Assembly (NCBI GenBank): GCA_947178125.1
Contig: CAMWXB010000008.1
Coordinates: 1-64,000, forward strand
Direction of reading: 5' to 3'
Origin: an uncultured Lachnospiraceae bacterium
GTDB taxonomy: Bacteria; Bacillota; Clostridia; Lachnospirales; Lachnospiraceae
DNA length: 64,000 bases
The notes under the pieces are model-generated. The model was not told the DNA's origin. It saw only the letters and a program-made list of their open reading frames with translations, and did not search any database. The translations under genes were made by a program, and so were the position numbers. Shown here piece by piece: positions 28,881-63,571 of the stretch (position 1 is its first letter; every line of letters begins with the position of its first letter).

Positions 28881-29095
28881 AAATGCAAGGTGATGGTTCA
28901 GCCGCCGGGCAGTGCGGTGTATGGTTCCTGCGAAGGCCCTTGAAAAGCGCCGGTGCTTAGCGAGGTTCTTTACGAGCTTAGCATCCGCTGCTGCTTTTCG
29001 CGGAGCGGAAGCGTGCCTTCAAAGGAACCATACACCGCACTGCCCGGCGGTTGTACTATTAAGATGCAGGGGTTTAGACAGCCCTTGCATTTTTT
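28881..29095 (+). repeat. long palindromic structured element, copy 1
   Basis: 28-bp perfect arms 28902-28929 / 29023-29050 enclosing conserved core; outer AAATGCAAGG/CCTTGCATTT plus T-run. Confidence 0.9.
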
Positions 29096-43701: not shown

Positions 43702-43713
43702 CCTTGGCGCTTG

Positions 43714-43938
43714 AACCGCCCATCGGGCCCCGTCTGCCGCCAGCGTGTCTCCTGCAGGACAGCGCATAGTTCCCGCGAAGGCCCTTGAAAACCGCTGGTA
43801 CTTAGTGAAAAAGGCGCTTTGCGGCTTTTGAACTTAGTACCGCTGCTGGTTTTTGCGGAGCGGAAGCGTGCCTTCAAGGGAACTATGCGCTGTCCTGCAG
43901 GAGACACGCTGGCGGCAGACGGGTCCGATGGGCGGTTT
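43714..43938 (+). repeat. long palindromic structured element, copy 2
   Basis: about 61-nt near-perfect arms 43714-43774 / 43878-43938 around conserved core. Confidence 0.92.
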
Positions 43939-44010
43939 AAATCTTGGGATTGCGGTTTTAACATGATTTATGATATACTTTATGAGTTGCGTTAAACAGG
44001 CTTTATCGAG

Positions 44011-44892
44011 ATGGAGAACGGAATGCTTCCTATGTTGTTGACTGTTGTAGTCATTCTTATCTGCTTTTTTTTGCTCGTCATGTATTATGACTGTAACCGG
44101 TTCGTGACGGTAGAATACGAAATTGAATCGCCCAAAATAACAAAGGAATATACTTTTGCGCTGTTATCCGACCTGCACAATAAATCTTTTGGAGAGCAGA
44201 ACGGGAGATTAATTGCGAAAATAGAAGAACTGGCTCCGGATGCTGTTCTGGTAGCGGGAGATATGCTGACCGCCATTGAAAAGAAGAAAAAACATCAGGT
44301 GGCGATAGATCTGATGCAAAAGCTTGGGGAGCGTTATCCTGTTTATTACGGCATGGGCAATCATGAGCATCGTATCGGCGTCGAACCGGGAGAACTCAGA
44401 AATCTGTATGAAACTTATATGGAAAGTCTGCATCAGTCAGGAATTGAACCGCTGATCAATGAAAAGGTCGATCTGCCGTCCGCGAACATCAATATCTGCG
44501 GTCTGCAGATAGACAGATGCTATTATCGGAAATTTTCCAGATGTCCGATGGCGGTGAGCTATCTGCAGGATATGCTGGGGGCGCCGCAGAAAGATAAATT
44601 TCAGATCCTGATCGCTCATAATCCGGAATATTTTGAAGAATATGCGGAGTGGGGGGCAGACTTAGTCGTTTCGGGGCATATGCACGGCGGGCTGATGCGG
44701 CTGCCATGCCTTGGAGGTGTCATATCTCCGAGGCTGACGCTTTTTCCGCATTATGACGGCGGAAGATTTGAGAAAGACGGCTCCGTTATGATCTTGAGCA
44801 GAGGGCTCGGAACACATACGCTGCCGATACGGATATTTAATCCGGGAGAACTGCCGGTCATTCATTTGAGTCCGGCGCATGGCAAGCAATAG
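44011..44892 (+). CDS. membrane-anchored metallophosphoesterase (YkuE-like)
   Basis: LLSDLHNKSFG, VAGDMLT, GMGNHEHR, VVSGHMHGG. Confidence 0.92.
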   Translation: MENGMLPMLLTVVVILICFFLLVMYYDCNRFVTVEYEIESPKITKEYTFALLSDLHNKSFGEQNGRLIAKIEELAPDAVLVAGDMLTAIEKKKKHQVAIDLMQKLGERYPVYYGMGNHEHRIGVEPGELRNLYETYMESLHQSGIEPLINEKVDLPSANINICGLQIDRCYYRKFSRCPMAVSYLQDMLGAPQKDKFQILIAHNPEYFEEYAEWGADLVVSGHMHGGLMRLPCLGGVISPRLTLFPHYDGGRFEKDGSVMILSRGLGTHTLPIRIFNPGELPVIHLSPAHGKQ

Positions 44893-63199: not shown

Positions 63200-63327
63200 C
63201 CATTCATTTTATATATTTCTATAAGAACTTATCATACCATATTTTTGTGATATCTATATAAATAATATCATATTTTTTGAATTAGCAGTAGTATTTTCCG
63301 TCGAAAAATAGTATATTTACTATGTGG

Positions 63328-63503
63328 GTTTTACAGTTCATAGGACACCCGGCCGGAGCATCGTTCTCTTTGGAGGCACGCTTTCGCTCCGCGAGAAATG
63401 CAGCAGACGCTAGGCTCGAAAGAACCTCGCCAAACGCTGGCATTTCTCAAGGGCCTCCGCCAGAGAACGATGCTCCGGCCGGGTGCCCCATGAGCTGTAA
63501 AAC
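63328..63503 (-). repeat. long palindromic structured element, copy 3 (inverted orientation)
   Basis: about 42-nt arms 63328-63369 / 63462-63503; core matches copies 1 and 2 on the reverse complement. Confidence 0.9.
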
Positions 63504-63571
63504 GCAAGGGTTTTGCAAATGAGAATCGGTTCGTGTTCGCATTTGAGAATATAAGGAAAGAGGGGCAGCGA

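Follow-up and report, generated by a model that had tools for sequence, protein, structure and literature searches.

A probable MITE-like family of hairpin elements with a covarying core in Lachnospiraceae genomes

The bcr1-type repeats of the Bacillus cereus group are, like the present elements, short and dispersed, and combine a predicted structure with mobility; their hosts are unrelated to the bacteria considered here. Several bacterial MITEs have been characterized, including Correia/NEMIS, ERIC, RUP and QMITE (reviewed in PMC10969869). The hairpins reported here resemble them in being short, non-coding and intergenic, with terminal inverted repeats, target duplications, high copy number and a stable stem-loop, but differ in having a covarying core of ~100 nt that is common to lineages with different ends and duplication lengths, and in flipping in place. 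To our knowledge, no MITE with such a core across different ends and with in-place flips has been described. IS66 elements generate 8-bp duplications (PMC3281130), which copies of our family in genome G111 also show, together with GTTAC-type ends common to one IS66-type element there; unlike IS66-family elements, the hairpins encode no transposase, and a sister lineage in the same genus as our locus has other ends and 9-bp duplications. REPs measure 20-40 bp (PMC3733652). REP/BIME palindromes with RAYT transposases are, like our elements, palindromic extragenic repeats of high copy number, whereas the latter mostly span 165-250 bp between their outer arm ends and have terminal repeats and exact duplications.

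Our starting point was a window of 64,000 nucleotides, the whole stretch of DNA analysed, in which an earlier sequence-only reading had described three copies of a palindromic element with a shared layout and compensating pairings. Inspection of the window located all three hairpins with these arms, stems, pairings and the GC-GRAA-GC motif (Table 1), and the motif GCGGAGCGRAAGCGTGCCT has three mismatch-free matches against 0.02 expected. The arms are longer than had been proposed, with 67 of 72 arm columns complementary in copy 2. Compared with dinucleotide-shuffled sequence, the folding energy predicted for copy 1, -102.3 kcal/mol, corresponds to z = -10.9, and covariance model R1 matches the cores of copy 1 (G000:C8:28917-29035, E 4.5e-40) and copy 2 (43762-43890, E 1.4e-43). 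Copies 1 and 2 lie directly 3' of a gene and in its sense; copy 3, as we read the sequence, is flanked by divergent genes. Beside copy 1, AAATGCAAGG on its 5' side (28883-28893) is complementary to CCTTGCATTT in a terminator-like hairpin on its 3' side (29079-29095), and pairing between them may extend past the element ends.

Table 1. Positions of the element copies in the window, and copies elsewhere that represent structural variants.
Feature	Position or copies	Strand	Remark
Copy 1, 5' arm	28899..28929	+	
Copy 1, conserved core	28932..29020	+	P2 GAAGGC 28932-28937 with GCCTTC 29015-29020, around the long covarying hairpin
Copy 1, GC-GGAA-GC mini-hairpin	29005..29012	+	GNRA loop
Copy 1, 3' arm	29023..29053	+	
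Copy 2, 5' arm	43711..43774	+	
Copy 2, conserved core	43777..43875	+	P2 GAAGGC 43777-43782 with GCCTTC 43870-43875
Copy 2, GC-GGAA-GC mini-hairpin	43860..43867	+	
Copy 2, 3' arm	43878..43941	+	
Copy 2, insertion site	43702..43949	+	gene-1 stop to GGGATTGCGG; a few to 36 nt instead in relatives
Copy 3, 5' arm	63462..63506	-	
Copy 3, conserved core	63372..63458	-	P2 GGAGGC 63458-63453 with GCCTCC 63377-63372
Copy 3, GC-GAAA-GC mini-hairpin	63380..63387	-	
Copy 3, 3' arm	63325..63369	-	
Copies with AATAGAAAATTTACTTCGTAAATTATCTAT insertion	L009, L014, L016, L017, L020, L027, L042, L048		own genome
Copies with ACTACTGAAAGTAGT-type hairpin	L001, L029, L044, L050, L065, L068		own genome
Related subfamily	L053, L055, L058		own genome, GCGCAGCG
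Related subfamily	L338, L350		G329, GTAGCG

The family proved far larger than three copies. Within the genome that contains the window (4.14 Mb in 131 contigs), the core pattern with up to three mismatches has 77 matches and a reversed-pattern control has none; several copies lie at the ends of contigs, where a repeat that breaks assemblies would be expected. For genome searches we built a covariance model from 37 aligned copies, which matched 35 of the 37 genus genomes sampled. Copy number ranges from 0 to more than 130 between species within one genus, and two sister species carry 133 and 129 copies. Across the bacterial family, 102 of 249 sampled genera (about two fifths) were positive, while all 30 positives in an order-wide sample of 295 genomes came from this same family and sampled genomes of the order's other families gave zero matches. 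An exact-motif scan of all genomes returned mostly chance matches in GC-rich genomes and one clear match (L148). We rejected carriage by phages or plasmids: the phage and plasmid collections searched held no match, viral contigs with the first core motif gave weak model scores only, and those with the second gave no covariance model match. Rfam 15 contains no family that matches at gathering score, in agreement with the earlier failure to recognize a named RNA class. We did not find the family described in the literature covered, which excludes most subscription titles, and it is apparently undescribed.

The copies retrieved share a general layout in which the ~100-nt core is flanked by arms about 35-70 nt long; these pair almost perfectly within each copy and differ in sequence from copy to copy. 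Within the core, P2 (GRAGGC/GCCTYC) surrounds a long hairpin. A 2-nt bulge, a T.T mismatch and tandem G.A appositions mark this hairpin, and after it comes a GC-GNRA-GC mini-hairpin whose loop reads GAAA, GGAA, GCAA, GAGA or GGGA depending on the copy. In the window's genome, eight copies, in two divergent subfamilies, have a ~31-nt hairpin, AATAGAAAATTTACTTCGTAAATTATCTAT, inserted into the long core stem on its 3' side, and about six have an extra small hairpin of the ACTACTGAAAGTAGT type inside that stem. A handful of the 77 matches form a related subfamily in which GCGCAGCG replaces GCGGAGCG; the subfamily, found in G329 with GTAGCG as its core motif, has ends of TTGTRCA.AATA type, and one member, L055, has an 11-bp direct repeat at the element ends. 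In another genus (genome G156), copies L431 and L439 share an element of about 340-400 bp, outside of which inverted repeats run on for tens of copy-specific bases near terminator-like hairpins, as if the palindromes had grown outward. Outer palindromes are copy-specific in genus g120.

The suggestion that these are mobile hairpins was borne out by comparison with relatives. At the copy-2 locus, much of the genus keeps gene 1, encoding a D-Ala-D-Ala carboxypeptidase-like protein, in synteny with gene 2, and at the orthologous sites of a dozen relatives the whole hairpin and both arms are missing, with a few to 36 nt between the end of gene 1 and the conserved region 5' of gene 2. Because these empty sites contain neither arm, derivation of the arms from target DNA and insertion into a terminator were rejected for copy 2. 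The pentamer CTTGG occurs on either side of the copy (43703-43707 and 43943-43947) and may, weakly, represent a decayed target duplication; beyond it, no duplication is visible at the three window copies, and their terminal repeats have diverged. The segment at 43946-44010, GGGATTGCGGTTTT..ATGATATACTTTATRAGTT, lies 5' of the gene at 44011, is kept genus-wide and has a promoter-like appearance.

Exact duplications were evident in relatives. Genomes G017 and G329, which are 95% identical at the copy-2 locus, show insertion polymorphism (one copy of G017 is missing from G329), and their elements, which make up the CACGG-ended lineage, have terminal inverted repeats CACGGAAATCAATTTTCAGTCAGC. In these two genomes, 39 copies with both ends CACGGAAATCAATTTTCAG are bordered by an exact 9-bp duplication, with a mean flank identity at 9 bp of 0.664 compared to 0.275 for shuffled flanks (maximum 0.339) and other lengths near background. 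Elements of G111, from another genus, have GTTAC-type terminal repeats GTTACTTTTCATGGGGTGGGG and a duplication of exactly 8 bp (flank identity 0.53 versus 0.27), and the same ends bound a 2.3-kb element encoding an IS66-type transposase, which lacks a duplication of its own and is the sole element joining such a transposase to these ends. In the window's genome a duplication is visible in only a few copies, one of them an 8-bp duplication beside GTAAC ends, and elsewhere in the genus an IS66-like element carries ends that resemble them. The links to IS66 rest on few examples. From the different ends and the 8- versus 9-bp duplications, the ends that border this one core appear to belong to at least two transposition systems, and the 8-bp and 9-bp lineages would be moved by different enzymes. 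No mobilizing enzyme was found for the 9-bp lineage, and a search of unpaired CACGG ends in G329 for full-length transposons yielded only more copies of the element, fragments, and copies at contig ends. At L376:1834-2625 in G329, two copies of the element flank a YhgA-like (Transposase_31) gene; it was not supported as the mobilizer, as the repeats beside it come from two separate copies, one cut by an assembly gap and the other deleted for its core. YhgA-like genes may be common neighbors of the elements. Membership among MITEs is well supported in the relatives, and the window copies would belong there by homology and by the empty sites at copy 2.

Resident copies also change once inserted. 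G329 and G017 share 21 orthologous copies whose flanks are clear, of which 16 keep the same direction and 5 are inverted in place. The usual internal loop of GCG against TTG has become symmetric, in both directions, in about seven copies of the window's genome, and double compensated changes at paired sites, double transversions included, exceed a rough independence estimate. Divergence was 6.7% in the arms, 5.4% in intergenic DNA, 5.2% in coding sequence and 3.8% in the core, the last falling to 3.5% when one inverted pair is left out (p = 0.0004 against intergenic DNA); constraint on the core of resident copies is thus modest and leaves room for some function. Template switching by DNA polymerase between inverted repeats homogenizes arms and inverts spacers (PMC8604942), although the inversions in that study are far shorter than the elements here, and it has been proposed to maintain hairpins (PMC8794818). 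We consider template switching the simplest joint account of the flips and the loop symmetry, while the flips could also arise through recombination between arms or transposase action. Since template switching can explain both observations, covariation in the arms is insecure as proof of selection on RNA.

Covariation in the family is very strong. In a sequence-only alignment of 37 copies, two-sided changes occur at 28 of 39 pairs, 95.9% of pairing cells are paired (79.7% shuffled, 36-49% slid) and the covariation score is 0.483 compared to 0.173. At one Y-R pair every copy fits, with C-G in 20 and U-A in 17. An alignment of 43 matches from other genera, fitted to the covariance model, has a score of 0.742 versus 0.214. 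The covariation exceeds column-wise expectation, as a structured RNA would show, but arm homogenization could yield the same signal. Asymmetric core features (the 2-nt bulge, T.T mismatch, tandem G.A and GNRA loop) persist in ten sampled genera. The ratio of G.T to A.C appositions was 61:24 in the family alignments, well below the 30:1 of an FMN riboswitch control from related genomes, which suggests that pairing is not mainly selected on one RNA strand; the counts are small, and in the core alone, at 25:10, some G.T preference remains. The sequence-only reading was therefore too quick to take covariation as proof of a selected fold: a core that evolves more slowly than its surroundings and keeps its GNRA loop speaks for the claim, while the arms, with their two-way loop erasure, flips and weak G.T preference, look homogenized by mutation.

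Taken together, these results make it likely that the hairpins form an undescribed MITE-like family with a folded core, mobilized in trans, whose arms are remade by template switching and whose core is selected for mobility or persistence. Copies insert into intergenic DNA, and relatives show exact target-site duplications; the transposases would act in trans on the terminal repeats and, for the GTTAC-ended lineages, would be of IS66 type. Once a copy is in place, template switching by the polymerase from one arm to the other would keep the arms complementary as their sequence drifts and would sometimes invert the element interior. In the form of folded DNA or RNA, the core is probably selected for the element's own mobility or persistence and not for fixed host regulation; the strict GNRA loop and the slow divergence of the core allow for an RNA function as well. 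A more specific version, plausible to us though short of probable, is that a single conserved structured module, under selection as folded DNA or RNA, was adopted by unrelated ends (at least the 8-bp IS66-type and the 9-bp system) and spread through one bacterial family as a selfish core, its carrier interchangeable and its covariation partly a product of template switching and not of selection on RNA.

The elements might instead be host-beneficial structured RNAs, acting in processing, stability or as sRNAs, that spread by transposition and are now selected locus by locus, with covariation mainly reflecting RNA folding. Strong covariation, the exact GNRA-loop rule, the slow core and a slight sense excess (48 sense to 32 antisense among copies in tandem with genes) fit this account, which we nonetheless find unlikely given the modest constraint per copy, the in-place flips, the G.T to A.C ratio and the range in copy number within one genus. 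The sense excess is not significant (binomial p = 0.09) and we rejected it as a sign of mRNA function; by the same rough ORF-based call, many copies are flanked by gene pairs that diverge or converge. These placements make a host cis-regulatory role unlikely, and across the family we found neither a fixed position nor a significant orientation to genes, either of which would mark a riboswitch or leader, leaving the structured-RNA half of the earlier claim without the expected gene context. A leader or terminator acting in cis beside particular genes is accordingly the least probable of the readings weighed here, a very remote prospect: it suits copies 1 and 2, each directly 3' of a gene and in its sense, but not copy 3 between divergent genes, the inconsistent placement and orientation family-wide or the lack of any Rfam match.

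At the other extreme, template switching in a quasi-palindromic transposon could by itself account for all covariation, in core and arms, without any structure being selected. The double changes, loop symmetry and flips of the arms fit such a documented mechanism (PMC8604942, PMC8794818), but homogenization would erase the asymmetric core features that ten sampled genera have kept, and we regard this as quite improbable.

The family is a very abundant mobile one, present in about 40% of sampled genera of its bacterial family. Compensatory changes are normally taken as proof of a selected RNA structure, and the family puts this assumption to a natural test: the arm homogenization and flips seen here suggest that replication alone can create covariation. 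With hundreds of insertions that have orthologs, the process by which replication makes covariation becomes measurable. If the core is the selected unit, the family would contain a structured module able to persist while the machinery that transposes it is exchanged.
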